Shown one piece after another: positions 22,548-59,900 of a stretch of DNA of 64,000 nucleotides; position 1 is the first letter of the stretch; every line of letters begins with the position of its first letter. A model generated the notes under the pieces. That model had not been told where the DNA came from and searched no databases. It saw only the letters and a list, made by a program, of their open reading frames with translations. The translations under genes were made by a program, and so were the position numbers. Origin of the DNA: Tubiluchus corallicola (taxonomy: Eukaryota; Priapulida; Priapulimorpha; Priapulimorphida; Tubiluchidae). Location of the stretch: assembly GCA_030141605.1 (NCBI GenBank), contig JAQGDQ010000033.1, positions 861,214-925,213 of the forward strand. Direction: 5' to 3'.

Positions 22548-22640
22548 TCTGATCAATACAGCCAGGTAACTATTTACCGTGCATAGGGAATTTTAATGAA
22601 ACTGATGTTACCACTCGCCGCTTGGCAACCGTGCATTTCT
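22548..22640 (+). promoter_or_regulatory. Upstream block of copy A conserved in copy B
   Basis: TGATCAATACA, then CTATTTACC, CTGATGTTACCAC, CTTGGCAACC and TGCATTTCTC occur in the same order and similar spacing at 31765-31873, upstream of copy B. The block sits about 430-520 bases before the copy A start and about 430-540 before that of copy B. TTGGCAACC resembles a half X-box of RFX factors. It may be promoter, enhancer or a noncoding first exon. Confidence 0.5.
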
Positions 22641-23017
22641 CACAGATGCATAATAATAATTCATTAGCTACTGCACATTCTTTCCTGGAGCTTTACTCTT
22701 TTTCTGTGGTAATGATTTGGCAGCAAAGTAACGTGATCTTCCAAATGCGTGGTGCATTTCATTATACGTGCTTACAAATTTCTGTTATGAATTGCCTTTT
22801 TGTTAAAATAATGATTTTCGCAATTGGCTTTGGTGAGAAAAACCATAATATAAATCATGAAGCCAGACACATTAAAATCGCATAAGTGAGCTCCCAACGA
22901 CCAAAATGTTTGCGAAAAACGATTACTAAATTCTAACAATTTTATAAAATTATTCTACATCTAAAGCATGAGCTGTCACAGTGCAATGATTTTGTAAGAT
23001 GCTTTGGAAACACGTTC

Positions 23018-23067: not shown

Positions 23068-26000
23068 ATGCAGGAAAATAAACTGAGAGGTGGAAGACCT
23101 TATTCTCAGAAAGAATCGTCGCAATCGAAAAGGGAGGCATCAAAACTGAAACACACGAAGGTTGCGAAGTTAGGAAAGGATTCCAGATTGAAAAAGGTGA
23201 AAGAAAGATGGGAAGATATTCAGTATATACATGTAAGGTTTTCGCGGATTCAGCGCGTATATATAGACCTGGGTTTACAAACTAACTGAAACAATTAGAC
23301 ATGGTATTGTATAGTTCTGTGTATCGCCAAATTTTGTTAATAAAAGATACAACTACCGGAAAATGGCATAACATATAGGAAAATTCCTCCTAAATAGCAG
23401 AACTATAAAATTCTAAGCTTAAGTGATCAAGTTTAGGATTTGTGGCTGCCATTGACCGGTTTCGGTCGAAATATAGTGTTCTAGTTTAGCAGTATGTCAA
23501 ACAAACTGTACTGACTCAGACCTTATTCTAATTCAGGAGCCCATCTAAATAATTGTTACTGTAAGCAATAAATTGTTAATGATCATCAAGTATAGTACGG
23601 GACATGTCGTATAACTCGTACATAATTATAAAACATGTGTTAACATATCCTATTATATTGATCATACTGTCTCAACGTGCAGTGATTTCGATATTATTTT
23701 TGGCAGGTATCCCCAGAATTAGACGACACTGCAGACAATGTAGATGAAAAGGCGCTATCTGAAATTGCAACTAGTGTAGCATCAAAGACTACGATAACAA
23801 CGCCTCTATCAGATGAAGAAGACACAAACAGTGGCAACCAGAGTGCTAGCAATGTACTGGTCAGTGCCAGCAGCTCTAGTAGCGCTAGCTCTAGTCAAGA
23901 AAAGTCTCCAGTGGACAAGCTCTTTCTTTTTGACTTCTTTGAGGAACCTGAAATGAATCCTGAAAATGACGGTATTTTTAAAATAGTTTTTCCTCACAAA
24001 TGTGTATCTTGGAATCTATATTATAAAGAAATAAAAAAAATCGAGAAATGAGATAGATGAGATTTTATAAGTATTTTATAGTGTAGAGACTATAGCTGAA
24101 GCTCCTTACAATCATGTTCGTTTAACTGAGGTAATACTGTAAACGTTGACCATTATTGTACTTTCGGGCTTATTGGCGGCCTAGGCGCATTATTCCCACA
24201 AGCATTGAGTCCATGGTTTTTATGCTACATCACGAATCTAATCAATGGCTCAAAAACCATAACAGTACATTTGTTCTGTACTTATGACGCAAAATATTGA
24301 TCAATGCTTTTAATTAATGGGCTGCCAACAAGTTGTAAATAGATAATTTAGCATATGCTTGTATCATAATTATCTTGTATGTATAACGATAATATATACA
24401 CGTTATTAAACACATTACTAAACTTGGTTGCCTGAATTTGTAAGCTATAAATTACCATATCGTATCAATATTATGTGTTTCAGAAGAAGCAGACGACACA
24501 TTCCAAGATAACTTCAAACGAGCTGCTAATTTTGTTAAACAAAACAAGAACTTCGAAGAAGGAATGTTACTACGGAATATCACAGACGATGGTAAAATTA
24601 TTAAAAGAAAAAAATAACGCAATCGCTTGAAAATGATCACATCGACATTGCAAACCATTTTTTGATTATGCATAAGCATCAAAAATTGGCTTAGAAGTTT
24701 CAAATCTACAAACCAAAAAATAGATAAATTCGTATGTTACTATTGTTAAAATTTATTGCGAGTACTCTTATGTGTTCGCCATTTTCATTGCAAACTAGAT
24801 GAAAGCGTTTCTTCAAACAGCTGATACAGTTTCTTCTGTAACATGTACTCCTTTAACGGATATCTGATCCCAGCATTTTTTGACGACCATGATGTAAACT
24901 GATTGATTTCGTTCTTGTTTTGCTGCCATGTATTGAATATTTTATATGTCAACGGTGGCTGTTTTCCAATAATGATTAGCTGATATTGTTCCAGCATTTA
25001 AATTTTTAAGGGCCACTAAAGCTATATATTTCTAATTTTATCAGCCAAAAGCTAATGTGTTGTAATGTTGAAGTATGAAATTCCAACTTTGTAGGCAATT
25101 ACTTCTAATCTAGTTTTTCGTTGATAAGACTGCCAGAGTTAGGTGTAATCGCATATATGTCATGGTCATTCACGTTCATTTGAATGAGTTGCTGTCGTTA
25201 TTGCATCGCCACTAAGGCGAATTAAGTAAGACAAACTCAGAAGGTTATATTACGTGACAGAACATAGGTGGGTCTAACAATAAGTAATGATAGGTAGGTG
25301 ATTTGACTTGGACAAGGTAACTGGCACTGCTTCCACATTACTCCTCTTTAGGTTTAACTGGTGTTAGTTTGAGAAAAAGTTTCAGAAATTTAACATTGTA
25401 TCTGAATGGATAGAATCATTGACAAATAGCTATGCTGAAATAATGTGCGAATATACAGTCAGAACAAAGCTAACTCAACTATTTTTTCGTTGTTTGCATT
25501 CTTTGAGACACAATGGATATCGTCTCTTTAACACAAGTCGCAGGGTGGCGGTACTTTACCGGTAGGGACGAGCTCATCTAGATCAAAATGCTTTGCATAG
25601 CCAAAAAATGCCTGATATCCAAATGACTCCATATCCACAAGCATCTGTAGAGATTACGAAGATGACCCATATGGCTTAAAACCAAATTCATTTTTCAGAT
25701 GTTTGTTTCATTGTTTTTGTTTGTTTGTTGCTCATATGTTACTTGTTTGTTCGTTCATTTATTTGGTCACTTGTTCATTCATTCTTCCCTTTGCTTCTTC
25801 GTTTCTTTGATTATTTACCTAGTTGTTGTTTTTTTGTTTATTCGTTTTCACTTATCTATTGACGTTCGTTCGTTCGTTCGTTCATTGATTCATTTATTTA
25901 TTTGTTCATTTGTTCATTTAAGCACTCATCGTTCACTTATTCATTTGTTCATTCAGGCATTCGTGTATTTCTATATTCTGTATATTGAAATATTGAAAAA

Positions 26001-28562
26001 AAATCCGAGAAGTTGCTGATTTCTTTTGCTTCAAGATTCATAGTTGATTTTTTAGATATGCTTAATTGACTTTGAGGTATTTTAGCATTCGTTTTGCGAT
26101 AAATTTGAGCATTTTTTTCATACTGAACATGTTTTCGTGTTTTTGGTTTTAGGGTTATATACATATATGCATTACGCAGTATTTAGTGCGAAGACTCAAG
26201 ATATAGTAAAACTTTCAAAAGAAGTCAAATCGTTTTATACTGACACTGTGAAGAACTGTTTTGGTAAATCACAAAAGCATTTATCAGGTAAGTTACGTAT
26301 ATACTTAGCGGCTTAATCACATAATGGAAAGAAATTTGACACAGAACCAGTCTGAGAATGAATTGTCATCCGAAGTACTACCATTTTGCAATTTAAACAA
26401 TCCATAAGGCAGTAATTAAACTACTTAATTTGCTGCACGCAAAATCTATTAAGTTTTTAGAAGATGAAGGCTTAAAAGTACGAGCTTTTTTAATTTTGTT
26501 CAAAGTATTTAGTGTGGTATTTGGGCAGTCAAGCCTCCTTCATTTGCAAAAAAATTCTGGCCAGTATAAAACGATTTATGCAGTTTGTCTTTGTAACAAA
26601 AATAAAATACGTTTTTGATATAAAATTTGAAAGACAGGAAATACAAAAAAGTTAGAATGGAGCCTGAATTTTAATACGAACCTTGCACTGCAGACGACTT
26701 AGTGTACTAGGACACCACATTCCTCAGTTAAGGTAGTTCAGTGTTCATCTTTTATGCTGGCTAACCAATTTCAGCATTTCCAATGTCAAATCGCTCACAG
26801 TACAGTGATTCTAATTAATTATATTATCTTTTATTATTTTTTTAATTAATTAATTATAATCTTAATTATTCTTAATCCTATCTTTCAAGTTTTGTATTAA
26901 AATTAATCAATTGTGGGTTTGTAACATCATTAATAATAATTTTGACATCACTATTATAATGATAGCATTGGTTACTGTTTCAATAAGTTGCGGCTCCGTG
27001 ATTTATTATAAGCTCTTATTAGGTACGTTTGTCGAACTGGCATCAACTGCAGCACCGCAGGTGGCTAAAGAATCAAGAAAACCGACCAATCAGACGACTG
27101 CATTCCTTGTAGCAGCTTACAAACTTCTGCCCGAAGCTGATCTTGAAATTATGGACAAAACCTGGGCTGTTTGGAGTGGCGCTAGGACAATGTACAAAAA
27201 TATGCCAAAAAATATGGGTGAGCTATCATCACCAACAATTATTTGCGTTGTCTGTAGACATGTAAATATTATAATATATAATGATAAAGTGGTACTTATT
27301 CTAGGATTCTTGACAATATAATATTCTTAGACGGAAATATGAATTGTTTGCATTGAATAAGTGCATTATATTTCTGTTGTCTTTTTAATCAGTCCTTGAT
27401 TTAGTTTGAGCAATGACACATAAAATGCTGCACTGTCTGCCCTAAATCAAACATTTTAGGAAAAACATGCATTCTCTTTGGAATCCCGTGGATAGAATAG
27501 TCTGAAACACTAAAAAAACCAAATAAAGTGTTTGTGACAGTATATTTATTTTTTCAACTGATTAAACAAACTGTAAGTGACTGGCCTACTACATGGCTAA
27601 CCATTGTATACATTGATTAATTTGCGATTTGTAGTTTCATTGACTGACCGACGAGTGGACACTTCAGCATTTAGCACCTGAATAACTAGTTGATAAGTTG
27701 ATTTCATTGATTAATTTGCATGTTCATCGATTAATCAACATTTGTTTGGACTGATTTGTTTATTTGCTGATTGACTAGTTAGTTGGTCAACTGAGCAGCC
27801 AAATCATGTGTTTTTCAGAATACCAGCTAATTTAAATATTTCAACTTTGATCAGTTAACAGATTGCCATATGTTTCATTTTGGTTGAAAACTTTAGCAGG
27901 TCGTTCAAAAGACAGTAATGTGTTAAGTCATCCAACACTTCCAGCTCTTTTTGACCTGCTTTTTCATTTTTTTGAAATACCTGGAATATAATTGGGAATT
28001 ACAACTACAGTTTACATTTCTAGTATGCAAAAAATCGTGTCATGGATTGCCAACAAGAATCAAAGCCCAATAAAAACGTTTAGTGAATGTTTTTTAGCAT
28101 TTTATAATGTTGTTTGTTGGCAGTTGGGTCGTCTATCGTCCTAAGTACGTTAATTTTTCTAGACAAGAATTTTTCTAATAGAATTTTCTTACTAGCATTA
28201 TTTCAAAAGGACAGTGATAGGTTCACAAAAATGTTTTATTTTGAAAAAAATCTTTCTTTTTTTGCTACTGTATGATATCTGCAAGTAGTAAAGGTCTTGG
28301 CTAAATTTTGTTAGCAGACCTACAGTAATAACTAAAACACTTTATCATTTGTTTTTTTTCAGGTTTGAAGAGACTAAGTTTCCACAAATCAGCTATAGAA
28401 AAAGTGCGAGGAAAATATGGCTTTAACTATGCCTTAGTAGCCGAATGTTCCAATGTTCTGTCTTCAGAGGTTGTGCTAACGCCAGCTTTGAGATATATAG
28501 ATGAACTAAAGGCTAGAAAGTGTGGAGATATTGGACTGTATGCATTATTACAGACATATTAA
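23068..28562 (+). CDS. Unknown protein, tandem copy A (355 aa, six exons)
   Basis: Exons are 23068-23232, 23707-23971, 24484-24591, 26153-26287, 27023-27217 and 28363-28562. Intron 1 is phase 0 and the rest are phase 1, all GT-AG. Exon 1 is strongly basic (MQENKLRGGRPYSQKE, then KLGKDSRLKKVKERWED) and could act as a nuclear or nucleic-acid contact tail. Exon 2 is acidic and Ser/Thr-rich, with a run of serines, and ends in KSPVDKLFLFDFFEEPE. Exons 3-6 form a domain of about 212 residues with NFEEGMLLRNIT, YMHYAVFSA, FGKSQKHL, TFVELAST, LEIMDKTW, NMPKNMGLKRLSF, KVRGKYGFNYAL and CGDIGLYALL, probably helical, without signal peptide or membrane segment. I do not recognise the family. The same exon-intron plan recurs in copy B with about 75 % identity over exons 3-6 (counted by eye), which shows the model is real and under protein-level constraint. 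Confidence 0.85.
25695..25965. repeat. Degenerate TTCG/TTCA/TTTG tetranucleotide repeat in copy A intron 3
   Basis: Repeated GTTTGTTTG, GTTCGTTCGTTC and ATTTATTTATTTG tracts make an open frame of 106 codons rich in Phe, Leu and Ser, which is a repeat artefact. Confidence 0.8.
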
Positions 28563-30719
28563 AATAAGTAGAGCTGTAGGTCTAATAGCTTCTGTTGTGT
28601 AATTAAGGAAAAATATTGACAACGGACTAATGGCATTTTTATGTCAATTTGCCTATATTTGACATATTTGGTCAGAAGAGAAGTATCTTTTCATCTTGTT
28701 GACACCTACATAGTTCAAACATATTGTTAATCTATACTCATGGCCTGAAGAAGATTACATTTGTGGTTTTTCTTTGTGTCTTTGATTAAAGTATGTGCTT
28801 AGTTTAATTATTACTATTGACTATTCTGGTAAATTAAGTACGTGTGGGTACATTATGCTATGAACGAAAACCAAAAATGAAAAAGGACACAAAATATTGT
28901 AATACACGAAGACATTGCAAAAGGAAGTTGAGGGTTTCATACAGACGGGGTATTCAGTATGCAAACTGTGCCGCGGTTGTTGTGCAACTTGGCATAGTTT
29001 TTAATGTATGCACATTGAGCCTTAAATTGGTACAATCAATAATCAGATTCTCCAGCACTTGTTGCACACATTTATTGGGCTACTTTTGAAGGAATCAGTC
29101 AGAGGCACATTGTTTTTAACTGATGCTCTTGGAACTACTGCAAGGTGTGCTCGAAAGCCATTGAACTTGTTACTAGTTTCACTGGGCTCCTGATTCGGTC
29201 ATTCTCACTTTCACGAAGTGACTATCCACAAAGTTACAGGAAATGACAGGATTTCAAAACCTTCAAACAAACTAAGAATATACTGAATACTCGCGAGATG
29301 ACACATTTTGGCAGGCTACGATGTATTAAATTTTTCTCTGCAATCATTTGTTTTTTGTGTCATGGTGTCATCCTGACAAAATGTCTGTGTATCATGCATA
29401 CAACCTTGGACCCTATAGATGATAAATATAGGTACGATGAAGAACAGAAATAATTTGAGGTGACCACATGAAACTTTATAATTTCAAATATCCTCATGTG
29501 GGTACTATAATTAGGATGTGATCCAAAAACAATTATAACGTCTATGAATTTCTGGCATTTATTAGTATTTTAAGTCAGATCCACATGCATATTTCAATTA
29601 TCATTGGTACTCATTTGCATGCAAAATAACACTTATCTCCAAGAAGTTAAAAGTAGTTTTCAAATGTAACAGACTTAATTCAAGCTTTCTTTATAATTAA
29701 AACTTTTGTAATTAACGAGGAGTTGACTCCTGATGTACGAATTAAAATTACAAAGGTCTTGCGTTTTGCTAGAATTTGAAAGATTGGCTAATTTGGCTTA
29801 GCAGTCTGGAGTACTGATCAATGGGGCATCTACTCGCAATTTCGAGATTTTTATTGCTTATTATAAAGCTTGTGTATGATGACAACGGTCAAGTAAATGC
29901 AAGCTTCAAATCCTTGTTATTTGCAGATACATATAAAAATTCACGTTGCTATTGTCTATAACTATGGTGCGTTTTATATTAATATTGATTTAAGTAAAAT
30001 TCTATTAAGACTTTTAATTGAGTTTTTTGTATTCGATTTGCATAGTGAATTTTGCACAGGGCTTGACATTTGGACGAACAAAGGCCCTAGATTATTCCAC
30101 TTGAGAGGCCTCCCAATCCACCACCCTCAGTCACGACTGGAAGAGTACTTTTAAAACAAAATTTAGTAAAGCTGAGGATGGTGTTAACAATTTCGAAGTT
30201 CACAGTATATTGCTGAATACTGTGGTGGATAAAAAGTGAAATACCAATCTGTTTATTCCGTCATTAATAATAATCTCCAAGGAAGTTTCAGGTTTGAAAT
30301 TAATCAAAAATATAATCTAAATAAGGTACGATCACTTTAATGGGAGCCAGCTGATATAACACTGGAAATGCTGAATTTTTTTAACCAGCTATAAGGGATG
30401 AAGTTTGGACTACCTTAGTCAGTAGTAGTCGAAGGCTTTTGCCTTGTAAACAGAAGGGACTTCTTACAAATCCAGGCTGCATTGACATTTTCTCATCAAT
30501 TACGGATTTGTCCCATCAAAAAAGGTTGCCTCATCGCCATGACTGTCAGGTTTACAGACTCCAGGTTGCCAGTATACTCCACTAAAGTGAATCACTTTAG
30601 TAGAAAAGTTCCACTGGTAAGATGGTTCATGCTAGCTTCTCAAAATCTGTCAACATGCTTGGCCGTTCTTCAGGATGCAGAGCATATTTTTGAAAGATGA
30701 TTATGAGGTTTGTACCCGA

Positions 30720-31140
30720 TGGCATAGCTCAATGGTAGTGTGCTCGCTTACCAACTGGGATGTCTAGGCTGAGTCATACCAAAGACTTGAAAAGGTACCG
30801 CTGGTCCTTCGACGAAGCATGTGGGTTTATCGAAGTAACTTGCAGGTTATAATAACCAGGACCACCTTGGAATTAAGTATTGAGTTGCTTAACGTGTTAT
30901 CCTTGGACTATGTCCCAAGGGAAATTATTATTTTTAGTAGTGTAGCAAACTACTTCGAGCAGAATCAACGAAGAGTGCTAACTTGAGTGACTATCGCTCA
31001 GTGACACGCTCTCGATGTCAGCTGCTACTGTGAAGTTGTGAACTCGTGACTACGGAAATGCAGTACAACAGGAATCAAACCGCGGCCTTGTGTGCAGGCA
31101 ACGGTTCATCCTACGTCCGTTCCAGAAAAATGGTGCCGTC
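30720..31140. repeat. tRNA-like SINE material
   Basis: On the plus strand GGCATAGCTCAATGGTAG at 30721-30738 resembles a tRNA D-arm or box A, with a degenerate box B about 30-40 bases later. On the minus strand GGTTTGATTCC near 31072-31082 resembles box B. GC content is above its surroundings. This suggests one or two decayed tRNA-derived SINEs; the borders are not clear. Confidence 0.4.
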
Positions 31141-31764
31141 TATCTTGCTGAATGTTCCGCAAGCTGACATTGAAACTATCTATGGTAGGTTCTTGTTCGT
31201 AATCCTGCTGTTGCGACCATAACATCAAGCGACCTTCAGGCAAGTCAAGAGCAACTTGGATATCAAGAATGAATAAAGATCTACAGCACCTAAGAGCAGT
31301 GCCATAGTAGGTGAAAACTTTGGCTGCAGACAGGAAACAGTGGAGTGCTCTAGTAAAAAATAGAGCCCTCGCTATCTGCAATAGATGTGTAGAGCAGCAG
31401 CAGCAGAAGAAGAAGATTATTTTTATGATTCTGGTAAATTTAAGTTAAATCTGTACAAAATATAATTTAGAGCTAATATTAAAAAAATGGCAAACGGAAA
31501 GAGCTTGCAAAATTGTAATATCTTAAATTTAAAGTAGGAAATCACATTTTGTGGCAAGAAATGGCATTTTGTGCTTTAGAGAGCAAACTTCTTTTCTAAA
31601 AGGTGTGACTTTTGAGCTTGCTTCTTGGCTTGATCCGCAGTAGGTCTGTGCTTCTCCGCGCTTGTTCCACTGTTGAGCTCCGTCGCTCTGGCTAAGAAAG
31701 ATATGATTAAACATATGAGACCACCTAAACGTCGTCAACGAAATATTGGATGTGTATAATGGTT

Positions 31765-31873
31765 GATCAATACAATCTCTTGGTCAGATAATTATTTACC
31801 AGGCAGCCATTGTATTTCTTTCTTAAACTTCGCTGATGTTACCACACATAACTTGGCAACCATACATTTCTCC
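31765..31873 (+). promoter_or_regulatory. Upstream block of copy B conserved in copy A
   Basis: Counterpart of 22548-22640. It shares TGATCAATACA, TTATTTACC, GCTGATGTTACCAC, CTTGGCAACC and ACATTTCTC in order, with one insertion of about 16 bases. It lies 431-539 bases before the copy B start. Confidence 0.5.
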
Positions 31874-32303
31874 ATAATGTCAACACAAAACACAACAGAG
31901 CAATATCAGCAGTGCGCACATTTCTAAATGTCTTCAGCTCACTAAGATGAAAGTTAGTGAAATGTCTAGAATGTCAAGTGAAATAAGTGACGTAAAATGA
32001 ATTTTACGTATATAACCATGAAAAGTGCTATCGCTAATTCATTCATTTGTCTGTGGAATAAAACGTGAATACCTGCAATATAGACTAAGTCAGTTAGCAA
32101 GGAAGTTTGTTTTTAATTTTCTATACATCCTGCAGGAGCAATTGCCAAATTATTTACATACGTCAAGTGCGTAAAATACTTCAAGGTGGGCCCTGTCAAG
32201 GGCAAAAAGTACATTGTATATGGTTTGTTAAAATAATCTGAAAGTTTTGTATGTTTAACATCTCTTAGTGGAAGTTATTACTGTTCTGTATAGCTTATTG
32301 ACG

Positions 32304-35300
32304 ATGCAAGAAAACAAATTAAAAGGAGCCAGATTTCATTCACAGAAGGAATCGGCGCAATTGAAGAAGGACGTGTCAAAACTGAAACACGCAAAGGCTG
32401 CGAAATCAGGAAAAGATGCTAGACTGAAAAAGGTGAAAAAAAGAAGTAAAGATATATTAATTTGTCAGAATGCAAGGTAACCGTGGATTCCGGATATTTG
32501 TAGGCCGTTCCTTTTAAATGGCTTACAGTCTGCAGGGGCGTATCTAGGGAGAATGACGCCTATGGAAAGCACTGAAAGCCCTGTCCAAACATCTAACACC
32601 AATCTTTTTTTATTTTTATTTATTTTATTCAAATTTACCCAGAGAGTACTGTGGTAGGATACAGAACGAACTATTCAAAGGAAGAAAAATTCAAAAGACT
32701 TTGTGAAATGGAAAAGCAAATTGAGGAACTAATATGTGACGTAAATGTTTGGTAAGGACGAGATATTTAAGGAAAATCCAAGCACCCGTCATTAAATAAA
32801 AGTTTTATTCAAATATATATTTAGACTTTACATAAGACTTTTGTTCAAGTATATATTTAAGGCTATATACTATATGCATTGTCATGTAGATGAAGCAGAA
32901 AGACTCACCAGAACATAAATAAAACTAAAATCTGCTTAAGCCAGTGGTACCCAAACTATGAAAATTACACTGCAGAATTACTGCATTGGTTCTTTGAATA
33001 CTACATCAAAAAATATTACATGTCTAGTTTTTGCGGAGAATGGTCTTACTACCAGTTGCTATTGAACATGAGCAGTGATAATCGCCATGTAGACCGAAGC
33101 GCTATACTTTTACATAATAACATACACAAGTTCCTTAACAATCTGGCCACTCTAGTGCTTCTCAGGCGCTTATAAAGACAGATCATGCATTTGGAGAAAA
33201 TTCATTTTTTAGAAACTGCTGAGTGGCGCTCAGGGCACCTCCCATACCCTACATACGGTTCTCCCAGTCTGATAATTACACAAAAGTAATAATTTCATTA
33301 AACTGTAATTACTGTATGAGATTGGGAGGTAACTCTGTTACTATGAATTTGTCGAATCAAATTATGTTACCAAAATCATTTAGTTAACTAATGAAGACTG
33401 TACAAGTACACATTTATCATTTGTTCATTTTCGATTCCTTGATGGTGAAAATAAAAAGCTCCACGATAATATCACGGAAAAACAAACAAGTTCCTGTGAT
33501 TAATGAATAAAACGCTTGCACACTAGTATTGCACTAGATTTGAACTCATAACCGCGCGATCTACTTTTTACATCCTCGAGACAAATGACGTAGCAGAAAG
33601 CCTTACTTCCAAATAAAACTTACACAGAGAGATCATCTTCATCATCATCATCATCATCATCATCATTCGTCATCATCATCGTCATCTATAGAACCACGTG
33701 CAGGAACATGATTCTGTTCACCTCGTTAATACCACGACTCCCTACCTACTGTAACGGACAAAGTGCTTCTATCGTTGAAGGACCAGTGCAACGGATGCAA
33801 AATTTGAATTATGTCAACACCTGTCCTCCTGCTGTTTTTCTGGCTGATTCTCATTGCTATTGCTTGTTGAAGAACGATTTTCACTGCACTATCTGGTAGT
33901 CCAAGCATATACACAACCCGTCTTAAACAACGCCTTTTCATTTTTCTTGTCCATCGTTCCTCTTTTATTTTTTTTTAAATACAGGTCCCTAATTGAAATT
34001 TTCTTTGGTCATCTTATAGCCAAAATATTCGCCTTTGAAACGCGTCTATTTCAGCTTTATAATTTGCTTTTTATTTCCGGAATTAAAGTTATATAAAAAT
34101 ACAGTTTCAAATAGAGAAATATTGGCACGCGAACGAAATTTCAAAATCGTAACCGATAGGCAACTTTAATGCACCACTACTACTGTATGGGGAATCTTAA
34201 TGTTATAAGTGCATAGCTCTTCGTAAAAGGCTGTTGCACTCTTTATAAAACCTGTTAAGGCAATCTAAAATTTTAAATGCTTGCCACGCCCCCTAGAGGT
34301 TTTGCTGAGAGTGAGTCCATGGTGAAAAAATTTCGAGTTACAGGGCTTCGCCTGGACCAAATTTAGTTCTTTTACCTTAGTCTCCCTGTCATTAATTTCA
34401 ATTCAATTCAGTTCACCAATAGTGACCAGAATTCTTTAGCGGTTCAACTTAACCAGTAGTTAAGAAATAAGCGAATTTCTTTAATTGACACGTAAGTTAG
34501 CCTAAGTAAATTTAAACGTGTTGACAGAGTACATATTTTTTGTGATTTTATTATCTGTGTCGTTTTAAAATAAAATTTTAAATGCACAGCTGCAAGCCCA
34601 GACTAGTTTAATTTTTTTGTGGTGAATGTTTGTTTCAAAACTCAACCAGAAGTTTGTCACGAGGATTTTTTTATATGTCTATCCTCTTTTTTTCTGTTGA
34701 CGGCATATAATACAGCGCTTTTGATCATCCTAATAATATATTTAGGAATAACATTCAACACATTTCATCGAAATGAATTCTTTTTCTTTTGATTGTAATT
34801 AAAAGAAACATAGTTTCATACATTATTTTAATGAATACACTGTACTACTATATAAATACAATGGTGAAAACAACTCAGTGCTTATTAGTGGGCAGAATGG
34901 ACTCCGAGAACCCCTCTTTTAGAATAAAGTGATGAAATCGCCTTGGATTTTGTGTCAAATATAATCGGTTTTGCAGATATTTCCAGAGTCAGGTGGCACT
35001 GCAGAAAGAACAGACGAAAGGACTCTATCGCATACCGCAACAAGTCCTACATCCAAAGCTGCAACAACTACACCCTTATCAGATGAAGGTGGAGGAACAC
35101 ACGGCAACAACGGAAGAGTCGATTCAGTAGCTAGCAGTAGCACCACAAGTAACGCCATAGATGCAGTCGCCACCTCTAGACATGAAAAGTCTCCAACAGA
35201 AAAGCTTTTTCTCTTCGACTTTTTTGAGGAACCTGAATTCAATGCTGACAACGATGGTCCTGTGAATTAGTCTAAGTTTAACTTTAATTTCACAAATAAA

Positions 35301-38300
35301 ATTTAAATTTCTTAAATGTGCTCTTTCGTAATTAAAAATGAGTGAAGATAATTATTTAATTAGGAAGAGTTGCGTCCTCGGGAATGATTGCGTTTGCCTG
35401 GGCAATCCATTGCACCTTTTTATTTTTCTTTATTTACCAATAGGGGCAATGGGTATTTAACGAGGATAAATGCTTTGGGCAATGTTGACATACGCACGAA
35501 GAGGATTCCTGTTAGATACGAAGCGTAGAAGCTCTATTTAGATCGCGTCTCACAAATACTATGCATAATTTATTATAATAGATAGAAAGAAATCAGTTTT
35601 CAAAGCAAAAGCGCTAGAATTGCTTAATAAAAATTTTACTCTCACTTCTTTTTGAAAAATAAAAGTTCCTATTTAATATCATTCATCTATGAAGTTTGAA
35701 ACGCAAAATGAAATTCTATAAATGTCTTTGAAAGTATTGTATTACACAACTATATTTTTGTGTTTGCAAAAATGGGGAAGAGGTTTTTGTCTGCCAAGTC
35801 AGTTATTTTTGCAAAAGCATAGCAAAAAGCTGGTATATTATAATAGTGATCAAACATATTATATACCCTGTATAAAACATATAATCACTTAATCAGCGAC
35901 TACTAATCAGTTCTGATTTATAATTTCTAAAGATGGAAGCGTACATTTTGTAAAGCAAGACGTTTACTGTTCATGTGGCCTAAACTGGCAGTTCAATTCT
36001 GTTCTATGCTGTAATATGCTTTATAATTAATTAATAGCAAGCAACTGCAGTTTATAATTAAGGCACAGCATCTTATTGAATATCGTCAGTTTCTTTCTGT
36101 TTTGCTGTTTCTCTAATTTTTAACGTCGAATAGAGCAGCTAAAGCCAACTTGCATGGCAGTTTAATTTATAACGCTTGTAATATTAATATGACAATTTAT
36201 ATAATGTTGTAGAAGACGCAGAAGAAATTTTCTTGGATAACTTCAAAAAAACTGTTGATATTGTGAAAGAAGATAAAAACTTTGAAGAAGGAATGTTACT
36301 GCGGAATATCACAGACCATGGTATTGCTCGGATCAATCTTCTTTTATCAATAAGTTCAATCTTTCGCTTAAACTGCTTTTAATTTACTAGCTCAGTTGAT
36401 TTTTTATGATACGAATCGCAAAAAAAATTACAAGAATTTGGCTATTTCACTGATTAGTTTACTTTTGTACATGCGGAAAAATGAGATGACTGAGAGAGTC
36501 CTGTTGAAAAATCCATCAATTTCGGGAAAAACCTTGAAGTTCAAAATATTGACGGCGATTATTGACAAATGATTTCTTTGTGTGACGTGGCGACCAGGTA
36601 GGAAAATGGTTAAAATTTGAGGCTATATCCATAATTTTAACTCAAAGGAAACAAACAAGATGTTTTTGAGGTGTACTCACTAATCAGGAAACTGAAATCG
36701 CCCAAAAAAAGAAACAACACAACTGCCATTATTATGAAAAGATTTTTCACATTATCTTTATACTAAAAATCAACCAAAATTGTCAATGCAACTTTAGTTG
36801 GTTTTTCAAATACAAAGTATTAAAAAGATTACTCTTAGCATGTTTTCTTCCTTCTGCGCCATTACGTATTTCCAGGGTGATCACAATGTTCCGTAAGTAA
36901 GCATTGTACCAAATATTATCCCTGTGTACACTGTGAAACCGTAAACGCGATTAAATAGTTATTGAAATTTTATGCGCTATAATCTTTGTGCTAAAGTGGC
37001 TTTGAAATAGTACTTCTCGGAAATTGTTTTTTAATGGTAAACTTGTTCATTCATTTTTTTAAATTTAGGTTTATACGCCTATATGCACTACGCAGTATTT
37101 AGTGCGAGGACACAGAAAGATATAAGCAAACTATCAAAAGAAGTAAAGTCATCCTACATTGACACTGTAAAACGCTGTTTTGGCAAGTCTCAAAAACATT
37201 TATTAGGTATTTGCATTTTGTGTTGAAGCAATATAAAGGGCATACTTTACGTGTAGATTGTACCTTAATTAGCTTGTCTTCAAAATCAAAAAGTATTCCA
37301 AAGAAACAAAGTCTGTTCATATTGAAAATAGTACACTGCTATCTTTGGTATTAAAAAATTACGTATTATATAATTTGTACCAATAATATTACTATAAGTG
37401 GCATCTTATTATAATTCTACAAAACTTTTTAGCGCAACGTATACTTCCAAACAATTTTAGAACTTAGCTGATAATGAACGATATCATTAATTAGATTATG
37501 GCTGTGAATGAAATAAGTTGCTGGCATTCACAGTCAATCTATTTAATTATTTTAGAAATCAGTTTTGAATTTCAACGCTGATCTCAGTAACTTTGAACTT
37601 CATGATGTGAACATTGCATTCTTGACAACTTAATTCACAGGTACCTTTGTTGAACTGGCTTCAACTGCACTACCGGATGTGGCCGAACTGCGGAGGAAGC
37701 CTACTAATCACACTACGGGATTCCTTGTTGCATCCTTCAAACTTCTTCCAGGAACTCACCTTGAAATCATGGACAAAACTTGGGCCGATTGGAGCGGTGT
37801 TAAAACCATCTACAGAAATATGCCAAAAAACATGGGTGAGGGCGACTGTTTAACTATTTAGACAGACGGACTAACTGCGTAGTTATCAGACAGACTGTTT
37901 TGATAGATTTTGAGCGATTATTCTATGGTAGAATTTGGCAGAGCTTGCAACGATGCAACGAGACGTGAAAACGAAAACAAGGAAACCGCTAATTAGCACC
38001 CACGCTTTCGACTGATGCACAGTGACTAGTGTCGACGTCATATTAAGTGGTCTTCCTTTACAACCCAGGCATCAAGCCTGTTTGTTTGGTTTCGATGACC
38101 TTGCAGATAAGTTCGGTACTCAGTATAGTATAAAACCTTATTATTCTTTCAGTCAAAGTGGTGGTTCAGAGAACCATAGTGATCCTTCTTCCTACAGTTC
38201 TAGAAATGATTTGTGGAAAGTCAGAGATTTAGTTTTGTGAATTACGAGCTCCTACTTTACAGACTAATATAAATGATTTATAAGCTTATTTTTTTTATTT

Positions 38301-38553
38301 GATCAAATTAAATTAATCAAGTAAAACAAGTAATTTGTTCGTTCGTATTGTAGGTTTGAAGCGGTTAAGTTTCTTCAAATCAGCGGTAAATAAAGTACGT
38401 GGAAAATACGGATTCAACTACGCTTTAGCACTCGAATGCTCCAATGTGCTATCATCCGAAGCACAACTGATTTCAGCCTTAAGATATGCCGATGAACTAA
38501 AAAATAAAAGGTGTGGAGACATCGGACTATATACACTGCTAAAAATTTATTAA
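32304..38553 (+). CDS. Unknown protein, tandem copy B (362 aa, six exons)
   Basis: Exons are 32304-32471, 34977-35256, 36213-36320, 37069-37206, 37641-37835 and 38354-38553, with the same phases as copy A. Exon 1 (MQENKLKGARFHSQKE) is again basic. Exon 2 is a diverged Ser/Thr/Ala linker ending in KSPTEKLFLFDFFEEPE. Exons 3-6 repeat the unknown domain: FEEGMLLRNIT, YMHYAVFSARTQ, KRCFGKSQKHL, GTFVELASTA, LEIMDKTWADWSG, NMPKNMGLKRLSF, KVRGKYGFNYAL, CGDIGLYTLL. Exon 4 has one extra residue (TQKD). The intron 1 donor is GCAAGG at the place where copy A has GTAAGG; using the GTAACC five bases on would shift the frame, so a GC-AG intron is the better model. The exon 2 donor, G|GTCCTG, is also weak. 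The gene is intact at protein level, so both copies probably function. Confidence 0.83.
33629..33692. repeat. (CAT)n trinucleotide microsatellite in copy B intron 1
   Basis: A near-pure run of CAT triplets with a few CGT interruptions. Confidence 0.9.
38023..38240 (+). CDS. Possible alternative terminal exon of copy B
   Basis: Inside copy B intron 5, an acceptor TGCACAG precedes an open frame that matches the phase of exon 5 (1 base carried). It reads VTSVDVILSGLPLQPRHQAC, then LFGFDDLADKFGTQYS, a Ser/Asn-rich stretch, and LWKVRDLVL before TGA at 38238-38240. The composition looks protein-like and the region is less AT-rich than nearby intron. If used, the transcript would replace the last 66 residues with 72 unrelated ones. 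Copy A intron 5 shows no counterpart. It could instead be a fragment of another gene, and the pyrimidine tract is weak. Confidence 0.3.
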
Positions 38554-40569: not shown

Positions 40570-43098
40570 TTAGCTGTGTTGTGTTTTTATATGAGTTTTC
40601 AAACTGTGTGGCTGCGTAAATGCTGCTGTACACTCCGAGCATTTGTACGGCTTCTCTCCCGTATGTGTCCGTTTGTGGCATTTTAGCGTGTAAGATGCGC
40701 GGAATGTTGATGAGCACACCTCACACTTGAAAGGTTTCTCTCCTGTGTGAATGCGCATATGAGAGATGAGGCCATTCCGGTCGCTGAACGTGCCACGGCA
40801 GTCCTCGCAACGATAGGGTTTTTCACCGGTGTGAGTGCGGATGTGTCGGGCCAGTCCCGCCTTGCTGTTGAAGCTGGCATCACACTCAGGCTGAGTGCAC
40901 TTGTATGCTCGATCTCCACCGTGCGAACGCATATGCTGTGACAAGCCGTTGTTGTTCATAAAAGTGGCGCGACAAATGTCGCACTTGAATAGAGGCTCTT
41001 CAAGTGGACCGTGTTTAAACTGTTTGTGATTTTGCAGATCATTGAGTTGCCGGAATGCATCACCACACGTATCACAGCGATATAGCTTCACTTTGCCAAC
41101 GGCATGAGATCGCTTGTGTAATTCTAAATCATCATTTGTCACGAACACTTCTCCGCAAACATCGCAAGCAGTTGCTGTTTTGTCTATTATTGGTTGTTCA
41201 TTGGTCAACGATATTCCGACCTCATCTTTTAATGCATCCTTGCTATGTACTTTCTTGTGTGCATAGAGACCACTGCGATACGAATACGACGCACCACATA
41301 TTTTACAAGAATATGGCTTATCTCCACTTAGTTTTCTTTTTCTTTGTTTTCTAAAATCGGCATGATCAGGAAATGCGCCTTTCAGAATGACATGGTATGC
41401 GGTGAAGTGTTGCTCTAGCATTTCACGCTGTGTAAATCTTTCTGGGCACTGACTACACTGGAACAGGCGAGGTTTGATATGTGTTAGCATGTGCTGTTCC
41501 ATTTCCTTTTGACCATCGAATCTCACATTGCAGACGTTGCATTGAAACGAAACAGCAGCTTCTAAACTGTGAGCTAGCTCATGCTTGTGCAGACTTGACA
41601 TGTCTGAAAACACTGCCGTACAGATGCCACACTTGAGCAAGTTCATGTGACTAATGATGGGATGGTGCATCGACAAATTTCCACCATTACTCAACCCAGC
41701 ACTCATAGTGAGCTGCAGCTGCTGCTGCTGAGCCAGTAGTGCTTTCTTGTTCTCTGCTGCATGACTAATTAGATGCTCTTTCAGATCCTCTTCCTCGCGG
41801 AATGTCTCCCCACACTGAGTACAGTTCAATTCCTCATCGTCACTGTTACCACCTGCATTTACCTTCCCTGTAGCATGTGTCGCCAAGTGGCCAATCAGAC
41901 TATCTTCATCGTTAAAGGTAACACCACATTCATCACAATTAAAATTTTCTTCGCACTGCACAATGTCTTTACTTAAATTTACGCCATGAGCTGCTAGAAT
42001 GTGATCCTTAAGATTTGCTTCAGTTGGAAACTTTGAATTACATTTATCGCAGCTGTACACTTCAAAGGGGTTATACGCACTGTCAGTGGCATGACTAACT
42101 AAGTGATTTTTTAAGCTAACTTCATCTTGAAAGTGTAGTCCACAAATGTTGCAGCTGTGCACAATGTTCTTATATGTAAAAAATGACTTCACTGCAGCAT
42201 GCGTAGCGAGATGTTGATTAAATGATGCCTGGTCAGTAAATGCTGAACCACATTCTGCACAGATGTATGGTTGCTTGTCAGGAGGCTGGCTTTGGTACGG
42301 CTGTTGTGCTGCAAGTGTAGCCAGTTCCTTGAGACGGTCTTGGTCACTGTAAACACCATTACCCTCCTGCTTGACAGGACTACTGCTATAACCTGAACTC
42401 GTTCCTGTTGTAACATGCGTTGACATGTGCTCGGTTAAACTCTCTTGTCTACTAAAACTAGCCGTGCATTCATTGCAGTTAAACTGTTTCTCACGTATTT
42501 TGTACTGATAAGGTTTGACTGCAGTGTGAGTTGCTAAATGCTCTTTCAAACTATCGAGTGTGCTAAAGCTAGCTCGGCATTCATCGCATGTGTATACTTT
42601 TTCTCGCATCTGAAAAATTTCGACTGTATTCCATCGATCATTTGGGGCAGGCTGTTGGACATATGGGAGACCATATACAGCTAACTGTGAACTGTCCAAT
42701 CCAGCATAATTGTTGAAATTTGGATATGCTAGACTGGAAGTGTTCAAACCAGCAGTGCTGATATCTGTGGAAACTATGTTCTGTACAGAGACAGACGGTT
42801 TTGCAGCCGCTTGAAGGCTCTCGCACGTACGGCACTTCACTGGTTCCTCTCCTCGATGGAATGTAACACTACCACACTTCTGACAAAGATACGGTTCTCC
42901 TTGCCCATGTGACGATTTTGTGTGCGCTGCCAGTGCCTCCTGAGTACTAAATGTTGCACTGCAAGTTTTGCACTTATGTGTTGGTGCAGGTGCTGGCACT
43001 GATACTGATGCAGTTTGAGGCTCTTGGTCCCCAGTACGTGAAGGCTGTGTCATAGCAGTCGTTGTGGTGAGTGTGTCACCACTATTACTGCTAGCCAT
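40570..43098 (-). CDS. C2H2 zinc-finger protein, 842 aa, 19 fingers
   Basis: A single uninterrupted coding exon. The N terminus (MASSNSGDTLTTTTAMTQPS) is Ser/Thr/Pro-rich and disordered. Nineteen C2H2 fingers follow, first CKTCSATFSTQEALAAH and last CSECTAAFTQPHSLKTH. An early CQKCG...CRTC pair may form a C4 zinc knuckle. The first fifteen are separated by long, variable linkers and often share the form CxxCxxxFxxxxxLxxHLxTH. Only the last four are joined by canonical TGEKP linkers, so those are the best candidates for sequence-specific DNA binding. A glutamine run (QQQQLQL) lies between fingers 8 and 9. It is probably a nuclear transcriptional regulator. I cannot assign orthology. A splice acceptor (TTGTAG) lies just upstream of the ATG, so the 5' untranslated region is spliced. 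Confidence 0.93.
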   Translation of the reverse strand: MASSNSGDTLTTTTAMTQPSRTGDQEPQTASVSVPAPAPTHKCKTCSATFSTQEALAAHTKSSHGQGEPYLCQKCGSVTFHRGEEPVKCRTCESLQAAAKPSVSVQNIVSTDISTAGLNTSSLAYPNFNNYAGLDSSQLAVYGLPYVQQPAPNDRWNTVEIFQMREKVYTCDECRASFSTLDSLKEHLATHTAVKPYQYKIREKQFNCNECTASFSRQESLTEHMSTHVTTGTSSGYSSSPVKQEGNGVYSDQDRLKELATLAAQQPYQSQPPDKQPYICAECGSAFTDQASFNQHLATHAAVKSFFTYKNIVHSCNICGLHFQDEVSLKNHLVSHATDSAYNPFEVYSCDKCNSKFPTEANLKDHILAAHGVNLSKDIVQCEENFNCDECGVTFNDEDSLIGHLATHATGKVNAGGNSDDEELNCTQCGETFREEEDLKEHLISHAAENKKALLAQQQQLQLTMSAGLSNGGNLSMHHPIISHMNLLKCGICTAVFSDMSSLHKHELAHSLEAAVSFQCNVCNVRFDGQKEMEQHMLTHIKPRLFQCSQCPERFTQREMLEQHFTAYHVILKGAFPDHADFRKQRKRKLSGDKPYSCKICGASYSYRSGLYAHKKVHSKDALKDEVGISLTNEQPIIDKTATACDVCGEVFVTNDDLELHKRSHAVGKVKLYRCDTCGDAFRQLNDLQNHKQFKHGPLEEPLFKCDICRATFMNNNGLSQHMRSHGGDRAYKCTQPECDASFNSKAGLARHIRTHTGEKPYRCEDCRGTFSDRNGLISHMRIHTGEKPFKCEVCSSTFRASYTLKCHKRTHTGEKPYKCSECTAAFTQPHSLKTHIKTQHS

Positions 43099-50962: not shown

Positions 50963-53900
50963 TTAAACAAAGAAGTTTTTAATAATCTTCTGAATAGGCC
51001 TTCTACAAACAGGACATGGTTTTCCTCGCCTCCTTAACTTTTTTGCACATTTGTAGCAAGACACTTGGTGCCCTGTATGTCCATGGACAATACTGGCATC
51101 TTTCGGACGGGTAGTGCAAATCAGGCAGGTAACACAACCAGTAACAGGTTGAGGAGCATTTGTATTTGACTGAGTACTAGACTGCCTTTGTCGCCTACTC
51201 CTCCTGCCTTCTTGAGATGTTCCTGGTATTGCGATACCACTATCTTGACTACTAGACAATGTCAGCATATCGGCATTTTGATCGGTCCTTTGAGAATCTG
51301 CTTGCCTTTGTAGGTCTCTGACATTTTGCGACATAACAGAAACAGTTATGCCACTGTCTTGACTACTAGATGCTGAAGGCATAATAATATCCTGATGCAA
51401 AGGTTGCAAACTCTCTACTGATTGTGCTTGATTAGCACCGTTACTAGATAAATTAGGAACAAACTCTTTTTGTGTTGGAGTACTAATGCTTTCACACTCT
51501 GACACGAGTTCTCTTAAAACTGATTTCACAGCTTCAGTGTCTCCATAGTTTGACACTTTATAACTGTCTTCACGACTTTTTAAAAAGCTTGTACTTGTGG
51601 TTCCTTCGCTTATCAACACACAACTCATGCTCTTACAAGAATGTACATCTGCTGCACCAGTAACTATGTTGGAAAATCTGCTATCTGCTGTTTCTTCACT
51701 ACTGGACACAGCCGCCGGTGCAGAGATGGAACGACGATAACCAACGTTGAGCTTGATTCGCCGGTGATGCATGCTGGGAAGCCAGTCCTGCCTCAACTTC
51801 CAACACCTTCCGCAGTACCGAATTCCTGGTTTGTTTAATGTTTTGCACTCTCTACACCTCCACTTATCCTGTAAAGCAAATGAAATGGCAAAACATTAGT
51901 AACTTTTAAATGATAAACCACAATGTCAGCTTCTTAATTGCCAATTCTGGTTTACGAATTTACTCACTAACATAATAAAAAAAGATTATCATTATCAGTG
52001 ATCATCTTGCATTTGACCATCAACACAAAAACTTCTATGCTTTCAAGCACACATTACACCTAACAACACAAGAAATAATAATTTGTAATTCACTAACATC
52101 CAAGCACATGAATTTAGCACCTACATTGGCACACACAAACTTACTGATTTTTGATTTCTGGAATTGTAATCACCATCAAATATCTAATTTCACTCCATTA
52201 TGTTCAAACTACACACAGTAAGACAGTTTTCTTACATTAATAACTGGCAACCAAGCAAAAAGTATTAAGCAACCCAACTTTTTCTAAGGTGATAAATGAT
52301 CCCGTGTTGCTTGGTGATATAAATCACGATTTGTTGAATACGCATTGAGGCTATTCTCACTATTGGCCCTGACTCAAAGCAGTAGGAACTGACACACAAC
52401 CAACTGTAACATACATAAGTGGAGATGTGCTTGATTCATGTGCCAGTCAGACTATGTCTATGTTTGGAATTTTTAATAACAACGACGACAAAAAACTAAG
52501 ATAATGCATAGGAACATCAAAAGTGAAGATTTCCTCATAATTTTGCATCAACTGCCAGGTATGTTTGTGGGTAAATTATAGGTGTTAACCATGAGACTCC
52601 GATAACTCAATGCGTTAAATGTTGATAAAAACGACTTTCTAAATATGTTTAATTAAAATATTGCACTTGCACTGCTCCTTGAAAAGTGCACTTCGCATTC
52701 AGATGTTCAAGCCATGGTGAGTACAACTGGAAATCATTTAACAAAACTTCATAAGGAACATTTAGGGTCTAACTGAGTCATGTTTACCACACTAAGGTCG
52801 TCAAATTTCATTTTCCCATTTAACCTTGCAAGCCTACGAGATTTCAAATCCCACTAATGCCAGAATGACAACACACTCAGATAATACCCATGTGAAATTG
52901 ATACCGATTATCAAAGTTTACCCTTACACTGCAGACACAGCATTGGGAATGTAGATTTTTTTTATAAATTTTATTATTGCACATAATTCCCCTTTAAAAG
53001 TGAAATTACTGGAAATAAACACACTTGTGTTGTTTGACAAAATTATGTAAGCTGATATTTACTGGTTTTATGCAGACAATTCCAAACTTTATCAGCGAGC
53101 ACATAGCACTCTAAGGATGATGTAAGGGCCACAAATAATTCAGAGTTACGATTTGGTTAACTGTCAACTTCAATGGTTGTGACAAAATATTTTGCTATTG
53201 CAATTTTTGTTGAGACAAATCTTTTATGGTGTTAAAATGAACAACGTTAGCAATGTAAGATATGCATTTAAACAACAGCCCTGCTAGTTTACATAATCAG
53301 AAGCAGTTGGACCAAGTCATGGATTTATCAAATGGAGGTGTACCAACCCACGGTGACGATTCCTTGTACGATGATTCCGATAGTTCCCTGGTTGTCTATA
53401 TGATGTACCACCAGCTTTTCTGGCAACAGAAGGAAGAGAATATAATGTGCAGCGGAATTGTAAAAATGAAAGATTATATTATATTCGATTCTCCATTTAG
53501 GTGTTTCTACGATTTCTAATAATTATCATTAAAATGACAATATTGTGGCTTGCATCAAAACAAGGAATAAATAAATAACGACGTAACGCAACCTTTAAAA
53601 AATTGCAAAGTTACAAATCATATTTGGTAAATTGAAAATAATTATAATTTTTTCTACAAGTTGCCATGCTGCAAGCTGAAATCTAACACTCAAAGGCAAG
53701 GCTACTCGATGTTTGTGGCACGACAAGAGCCTGGCTCATTATCAAGGATATCCCTGTAAGATAAGCTACTGAACCAGGACAGATGTTTCAGCCATGTTGG
53801 GATAACCTCCCTCTACGAGATAAACAGAAACGTTTACGTTTTATATCACCCACAGCGAGTATCGAACCCACAGCGGCCACATGCTACTCATGTGAAGTGA

Positions 53901-56900: not shown

Positions 56901-59900
56901 TGTAGGCTGACATTTGTTTTCAATAAACTGACGTGCAAATTCATAAAAGCCAATCAGACGTTATTTAACCTATTTTACTGTTTTTTACACCAAATGCTGA
57001 TGTCTGTCTGTGACAGACTACTACTTCATGATGTCCAAAGTCAAAAAATTCATGTTTGAGTAGCTTTATTAAGTTTTATCTGTAAGAAAAATCATAACAA
57101 AATATAACAAGCTAATTTGAGCCAAAAAAGAAACAAAGAAATTAATAATAAAGTGAGACCGAGTAATAAAATAAACATACATCATGGCTCTACTACTCTT
57201 GACAAATAAATGGTTTAACTGAGGCAAACAACAACAACAACTCTCTCAGCCTGCCAACAAGCCAGGTAAACTAGCTCTGTTAGTAGAGCATGACAAAAAG
57301 AAGCCAAGTCAAGACATACATACGAATGCAGTTATAAAGGACAATATAAGGGGCTTACAGAATGAGAGAAGACTGAAGTAGTAAAATAACCTAAAATCCT
57401 TTACACTGCCCCTTTAAATGCGACTTTAATTACAGGAGCATTTACCAAAATAATTGAGTTTACAACAGAAATTAGATGTGTCGTTCAATTAAACATAATT
57501 GAATAATATGTCGTCTTAGAATGCCAGAAGCTGTCTTCAATGTTGCAAACCGCACCAAACCATCTTCCTCCGGACTGGCTACCACTACTTTGCCTAGAGC
57601 CCAGCTGCTTCGCGGAGTCTGGATGTCTTTAATTAAGACGATGTCACCTTCTTGGATGTTTTTCTTGGCTCTGTTCCATTTAGACCTTTGCTGGAGCATA
57701 ACTATATATTCCTTCCTCCACCTTTGCCAAAATATGTTGGCCATGCGTTGAATGTGGCGCCATCTTCTTGTGTATACATCACAGTCGGTTAATTTTCCAG
57801 GTGGTAGAGTAGGACCACTGCGCAGCAACAGCAAGTGATTAGGAGACAGAGGTTCGCAATCGCGAATGTCATCTGAAACTACAGAAATCGGACGACTATT
57901 CAGGATATTCTCAACCTGACAAAAATATGTGTGTAGTGCTTCATCATCTATGGTGTGCTTGTCCATGATAAAGGTAAGTTCATTTTACGCTCTTTCTTAG
58001 GTGCTCCCAAACTCCTCCAGTATGTGGAGACTGAGGAGCATTAAATTGCCATTCGATTCCCTTTTTTGTAATGTCTTGGAAATGTCCTCATTGTTCCACT
58101 GCTCGATCGATCTCTTTAGTTCGCGATCTGCTCTAGTTAAATTAGTGCCACAATCATCGCAGCATCTTGAGCTCGCCTTTATGATAAACAAATACATTAA
58201 TTAAGGAGTCACTTTCCATTGTATATAGAATTTTCAGATGGACTGCTCTGGTAGCTAAGCAGGTGAATATAAGACTATACCGTTTGACATATGTTCTTGC
58301 TCTTTTGACATGATAAGGTCCAAAACAATCCAAACCAGAAAATTCAAAAGCAGCAGAGTCTTGCACCCTTTCGTCTGGTAAATCAGACATTTTCTGTTGC
58401 ATCATTTTACCAAGTTTTCTTCTGCAAAGTCTGCACTCTCGTATTAGTCTCTTCATCATGACTCTCAAACCGATTACCCAATATCTGGATCTCACCAACA
58501 AAATAACATGCTCCTTACCAGCATGACCGTAAGCCTCATGATAATGAAGCACAATTAATTCTGCAAAATGATGTTTTGGCAACAAGTCAGACAAAACCGG
58601 GTCAAGCTTATATAGGCAACTGGATTTGGCTACAAGTTGTCCTGATAAGAAAGCTTCATACTCATTAGTAAAGTAGAGCTTTTGCAGAGTCCTTACAACT
58701 TCATTATGTGCGTCGTTTATCTCCGACATTGACACGTTTGGAGAAAGAAGTAGAGTCTTGTTGGTGACCTTGGCCTGTAAGATGTGTTTGAATCGCAGCA
58801 TCCAAGCGACTGCCCTGGAGAATTTGTATGATGGTGAGAAGTGAACCAACATTTTGTCTATTGGGTTCAACATGTCATGGCCAGATTGCACTAAATTGAC
58901 TTCTACAGATTTCTTTACCTCGCTGTCATTTTTAAGGAGATCTAAGCTGGGCCACTCACTCGCGTATTTCAGAAGAAAGCTTGGTCCATTAATATGTATT
59001 GACAATAGTGCCTTCATTTTCAGCTTTGGACTGGGTAGAATTATTAGGCCCCCTTTAATAAACAGTGCCGGGTAATTACCGGGCACAAAAGGTTAATAAA
59101 TCTTTACAATGGTACGAAATAATTTGTATAATGAAGCTGCAAGTTAAATATAAAGGATTCAGGACTCAAAATTGACTTATATCTACAAAGAAACATTTTA
59201 TTGCTGACCAGTTGCAAAAATTGCAGGAGGATATTTTAAAAACTTCGGTGTCATTTTTTCCAAACATTTCATATTTTTTTGTGTAAACATTGTTTAATAC
59301 ACTTCAGCATTAATATCTATCAGTGATCTACACTTAATGGCAGAACCTACTTAATATAAATAATTGTTGTACTACTAGAATGCAACTCATTGTTTCCTCT
59401 TTTTCATGATTCTGAAGTAAACCAAAGCATTTAATTCAGTTTATTTGATAAGTATTACACTAATGTTTAACATGTATTTATTGGAACATTATATCTGATG
59501 CATTATTGCATATTACAAATGTGATACCTATTCAACTTATTGACGAATCTTATGTGCTGACAGCAATTGAATTTGAAGTTTGATATTCATATTAATTTTT
59601 TGCATAATATAGTTTTTGTAGTTGTTTTGAACCAGAACTCTAGTTCTAGTAGTAAGCTATTGATGTGTTAAAGACAAAAAAGGGGCACCAGAATTTCGGA
59701 AAAATCGCCTTAAAAAATTATATTATTTTATAGAAATTTTATGCATATATCGTACTCACGTTGAAAGTATTTTTTGCTTGTTTTGATTTTAAATCTCCCG
59801 CAATACTGTTCTGACCGTGCCATTACATGATGTCGTATACACACAACGTAAATCAGGGGAAGAAAGGACGTGTTAAACTATGTAGCAAAATACAGTCCAT

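Follow-up and report, generated by a model that had tools for sequence, protein, structure and literature searches.

The gene pair and its family

We analyzed a window of 64,000 nucleotides from the priapulid Tubiluchus corallicola (assembly GCA_030141605.1, contig JAQGDQ010000033.1, positions 861,214 to 925,213), in which two adjacent six-exon genes on the forward strand together occupy positions 23068-38553, gene 1 extending over 23068-28562 and gene 2 over 32304-38553. Each has an uninterrupted reading frame with its own ATG and stop codon, of 355 and 362 amino acids, respectively, and, judged by their match to a Pfam model, both products are members of DUF7153, an already catalogued domain of unknown function. 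Intron positions are the same in the two genes, with phases 0, 1, 1, 1, and 1 after exons 1 to 5 in each, and identity between the products amounts to 240 of 355 aligned residues over the whole proteins and to 159 of 212 over exons 3-6. A preliminary description of this DNA had reported the common exon number, intron positions, and phases, all of which we confirmed, and its count of 159 matches in a domain of about 212 residues proved exact. Its account of diverged introns was likewise borne out: introns 1 to 5 measure 474, 512, 1561, 735, and 1145 bases in gene 1 and 2505, 956, 748, 434, and 518 bases in gene 2, and the nine blastn matches between the gene regions (expectation value, E, up to 1e-3) comprise seven over exons, one upstream element, and one TCATCA simple repeat, with none wholly within an intron. 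The exon 4 match also takes in the last 40 or so bases of intron 3; the other intron sequence no longer aligns. The product of exon 1 is basic, as had been described, with isoelectric points (pI) of 10.2 and 10.4 and net charges of +9 and +13 in genes 1 and 2, and that of exon 2 is acidic and rich in Ser and Thr (pI 4.1 and 4.6; Ser plus Thr 28% in each). The earlier reading of exon 2 as a low-complexity acidic/Ser linker therefore stands for its composition and fails for its end, KLFLFDFFEEPE, which is identical at 12 of 12 positions between the genes and lines up with the beginning of the domain in a distant paralogue.

The Pfam model PF23672 (DUF7153) was matched by the two proteins at E = 1.9e-37 (129.2 bits) and 9e-36 (123.7 bits), with a curated cut-off of 27 bits, and both matches are near full-length, covering profile positions 1-169 of 170. 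Conservation begins about 40 residues before the Pfam model does and thereby includes most of exon 3 as well as the end of exon 2. Other Pfam matches of the window proteins fell under their own cut-offs (Na_trans_assoc, E 0.052; YwqH-like, 0.22; SoxE_N, 0.66 and 0.81), and the matches to phage families (PHROGs) were no more than weak (E 0.011 and 0.12). The preliminary description had proposed an unrecognised and undescribed, possibly lineage-restricted family, an idea that, as far as it calls the family undescribed, we can hardly credit, because the PF23672 match is alone sufficient to overturn it and is the kind of result, a confident match to a described family, that the description itself had named as refuting. 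This holds even though the literature searched, a part of the whole, names neither DUF7153 nor PF23672, no solved structure was matched by sequence below E 0.7, and scans for sequence patterns turned up no confirmed relatives among prokaryote and viral contigs. Those scans used two short peptide patterns each and returned 192 stretches in prokaryote genomes and 246 in viral contigs, with 0 confirmed relatives in each; a search for the family in control genomes matched 0 of 14, at least eight of which were prokaryotes. When the gene 1 and gene 2 pair served as query, solved structures (PDB) gave nothing by sequence up to E = 10, and a three-sequence profile returned only threonyl-tRNA synthetase (three rows, E 0.7-0.95), which we judged to be chance. 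A false lead is removed by finding the apparently unplaced domain already catalogued, and the modest gains are a wider boundary for the domain, a tentative assignment of half of it to a ferredoxin-like fold, and a four-gene family with comparable introns.

The ratio of nonsynonymous to synonymous rates (dN/dS) between the copies, which the preliminary description had proposed as a check, was computed by the Nei-Gojobori method and is 0.175 over all codons, with 0.117 in exons 3-6 and 0.287 in exons 1-2. The corresponding ratio of uncorrected proportions (pN/pS; ranges from 1000 bootstraps each) is 0.30 (0.24-0.38), 0.22 (0.16-0.30), and 0.43 (0.32-0.60). Purifying selection on the pair is strong; of the earlier claim that it acts on both copies, the constraint on the pair stands, and a comparison of two copies cannot show it for each branch. 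The dS between the genes is about 1.0-1.3, close to saturation, so that the duplication is old and the dS values are rough. On these comparisons, genes 1 and 2 are old tandem duplicates that appear to have both retained the protein.

At intron 1 of gene 2, no GT donor stays in frame when joined to the AG that corresponds to the gene 1 acceptor; the GT at 32477 (GTAACC), for one, breaks the frame with it. Aligned by eye, the gene 1 donor CAT/GTAAGG (the slash marking the junction) corresponds to AAT/GCAAGG at 32472 in gene 2, where a GC donor restores phase 0. Seven donor-acceptor pairs are in frame including the GC one, and the other six shift the donor, the acceptor, or both; from the alignment, the donor is most likely the GC, and the uncertainty in the gene 2 product is limited to the residues around this junction. 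The replacement of GT by GC at the aligned donor, together with the frame broken by the nearby GTAACC donor, could also be taken as the onset of pseudogenisation. We regard such decay as improbable, given that the frame of gene 2 is intact across 362 codons, that its other four introns are GT-AG, and that pN/pS of the pair lies well below 1, although a two-sequence comparison cannot assign this constraint to a branch.

Table 1. Exons and upstream blocks of the two DUF7153 genes (positions in the window)
Feature	Positions	Strand	Remarks
Conserved, probably non-coding block 5' of gene 1	22550..22641	+	core 22602-22641, starts 466 bp before ATG
Gene 1 exon 1, basic N-terminal tail (55 aa)	23068..23232	+	pI 10.2; GT-AG intron next
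Gene 1 exon 2, acidic Ser/Thr-rich linker; end KLFLFDFFEEPE aligns with paralogue domain start	23707..23971	+	
Gene 1 exon 3	24484..24591	+	
Gene 1 exon 4	26153..26287	+	
Gene 1 exon 5, W-x2-W-[ST]-G ... MPK motif	27023..27217	+	
Gene 1 exon 6 and stop codon, ECSN motif	28363..28562	+	
Matching block 5' of gene 2	31764..31872	+	core 31833-31872, starts 471 bp before ATG
Gene 2 exon 1; likeliest donor GC (AAT/GCAAGG), in-frame alternatives exist	32304..32471	+	
Gene 2 exon 2; start may move with donor used	34977..35256	+	
Gene 2 exon 3	36213..36320	+	
Gene 2 exon 4	37069..37206	+	
Gene 2 exon 5	37641..37835	+	
Gene 2 exon 6 and stop codon	38354..38553	+	

Paralogues in the same genome

The own-genome search for the family, covering the 343.5 Mb assembly in which the window sits on a 1.05 Mb contig, returned six exon-level matches, all six above the cut-off, in four genes: gene 1, gene 2, an intronless frame on C1159, and an intron-bearing gene on C1999. 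Searches of the same genome with the C1159 protein or gene 1 recovered these four genes and no fifth, counts from such searches being lower bounds for large families. The C1159 paralogue is a reading frame of 495 amino acids (L001, 649-2136) in which many acidic residues occupy an extended N-terminal portion, and its domain is 26% identical to gene 1. Fragments of the C1999 paralogue are 52-56% identical to C1159, and this gene matches DUF7153 at E 9e-32. The motifs W-x2-W-[ST]-G, MPK, and ECSN are common to the window genes and the C1159 paralogue, and two of them read MPS and ECLN in C1999.

The C1999 gene contains two phase-1 introns, whose positions in the alignment correspond to those of introns 3 and 4 in the window genes (N-G/FLIPYIYY versus D-G/LYTYMHY and H-A/CFQEL versus S-G/TFVEL), and has no intron at the positions of their introns 2 and 5. 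From these alignments we infer that introns 3 and 4 predate the split from the C1999 lineage. The C1159 paralogue would then have lost those two introns or be a retrocopy, a possibility raised because the C1999 paralogue carries introns within the same domain.

A common upstream element and the neighboring genes

The blocks 5' of the two genes have cores identical at 33 of 40 bases (blastn, E 3e-5), and the best local alignment between the 1-kb upstream regions scores 26, compared with a maximum of 19 in 200 shuffles. A coding nature was set aside by eye, the changed bases being without third-position bias. Such a common element could tell in which cells the genes work. It includes TGATCAATA and TATTTACC words, and words in the element can be read as forkhead-like and Onecut-like. 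In both genes it also bears two RFX-like half sites, GTTACC and GGCAAC, separated by 11 bases, a configuration present nowhere else within the window. The RFX X-box consensus (PMC2375033) has 1-3 bases between the half sites, and the element of the window genes fails this consensus by its spacing. Upstream of the C1159 paralogue, at a distance of 71 bp from the ATG of its frame, lies an X-box-type GTTGCCTGGTGAC (GTTGCC-T-GGTGAC; L008, 6162-6174). Across the window, L007, and L008 (83.8 kb), a strict X-box pattern gave one hit, and a looser one, close to that of PMC2375033, gave 11, two of which are one palindrome. These X-box-like sites are a lead found after the fact and not evidence of regulation.

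Just downstream of gene 2, on the opposite strand, a single frame of 842 amino acids (40570-43098, reverse strand) encodes a C2H2 zinc-finger protein with 18 zf-C2H2 stretches. An MDM2-type gene follows as an open reading frame at 50963-51796 (reverse strand; 277 amino acids from TTG), the C-terminal RING of which matches the solved MDM2 RING (best E 7.7e-22) and MDM4. Probable retroelement remains at 58154-59086 (reverse strand) carry an Integrase_H2C2 match (E 1.1e-8), and the frame at 57472-57966 (reverse strand) looks by eye like a further part of that integrase. With their intron-bearing character, and with the MDM2-type RING and C2H2 genes beside them, the DUF7153 genes look like those of an animal.

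Predicted fold and possible function

The fold of the domain was approached through an AlphaFold model of the domain of the C1159 paralogue, with five fragment rows (six rows in all; fragment alignment A3 was left out as misaligned). In the C-terminal half, strands (E) and helices (H) follow the order E-H-E-E-H-E, and 10-residue means of the predicted local distance difference test (pLDDT) range from 62 to 82 over residues 141-230. Foldseek comparison with solved structures returned dimeric ferredoxin-like proteins, monooxygenases, EthD, or IsdI by title in 6 of the first 10 and 17 of the best 50 rows, the structures of that type including 2od6, 7bio, 2op5, 3kg0, 3kg1, 2omo, 3bb5, 2zdp, 2ftr, and 3fmb. 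The model thus suggests a ferredoxin-like C-terminal half, beta-alpha-beta-beta-alpha-beta, and we consider it probable that DUF7153 membership, two intact genes, and this fold for the C-terminal half hold jointly.

Several observations weigh against the fold assignment and lower our confidence in it. The AlphaFold alignment held six rows only and the whole-model mean pLDDT is 47.7; the best Foldseek match has E 0.010, with nothing at E 0.001, and VIA-align scores MscS-type and PheRS domains above dimeric alpha+beta barrel ones, so that the support from these two comparisons is thin. The N-terminal half was modeled weakly and fold searches with it gave nothing usable, although by eye its order of strands and helices is compatible with a ferredoxin-like unit. 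No internal repeat was detected in the domain, and in Pfam no dimeric alpha+beta barrel family passed its cut-off, only DUF7153, in a search whose filters may lose weak matches. The ferredoxin-like prediction could accordingly be an artefact of the thin alignment, the domain having another fold; this we hold to be unlikely, since the C-terminal half reaches pLDDT means of 62-82 and a single fold type, by title, fills 6 of the first 10 Foldseek rows, though it is the alternative to be taken most seriously.

In each protein, the basic tail is followed by the acidic linker rich in Ser and Thr and then by a C-terminal domain that starts at the end of exon 2 and spans about 235 residues. If the ferredoxin-like reading is correct, the two halves of this domain might come together as an internal pseudo-dimer of the kind known from dimeric alpha+beta barrel proteins. 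The resulting barrel module might bind either another protein or a small hydrophobic molecule, with the charged tail setting location or partners. Such a tandem module, binding a ligand or partner on a charged tail, is a tentative proposal that is more doubtful than not. Less likely still is an enzyme of the antibiotic-biosynthesis-monooxygenase (ABM) or EthD type with the barrel as active site, because no sequence link to those enzymes was found. Two monooxygenases, RslO4 (rank 3) and SnoaB (rank 16), do appear among the Foldseek rows, as does EthD (rank 36), and the window genes share the motifs W-x2-W-[ST]-G, MPK, and ECSN with the paralogue on C1159; however, the fold similarity is generic, other domains rank higher, only DUF7153 passes the Pfam cut-off, and the C1999 paralogue reads differently at two of the motifs. 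The further idea that DUF7153 proteins are animal tandem ferredoxin-like (internal alpha+beta barrel) proteins, working in ciliated cells under RFX control, we regard as a long shot.

Among known systems, NECAB proteins are animal proteins with a C-terminal ABM domain in addition to EF-hands. The proposed window proteins would likewise be animal proteins with an ABM-type fold behind other segments, a likeness of description; EF-hands belong to NECAB, whereas Pfam gives none in the window proteins. With the dimeric alpha+beta barrel proteins, a group that takes in the ABM and EthD types, the comparison differs in that the window protein would carry two such units in one chain; the window proteins match no Pfam family of that group, and VIA-align gives the higher scores to MscS-type and PheRS domains. 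The closest relation is with Pfam DUF7153 itself, whose profile is matched near its whole length and far above the cut-off in both window proteins and both paralogues, while the conserved region of the window proteins starts earlier than the model and their basic and acidic N-terminal exons lie outside it.
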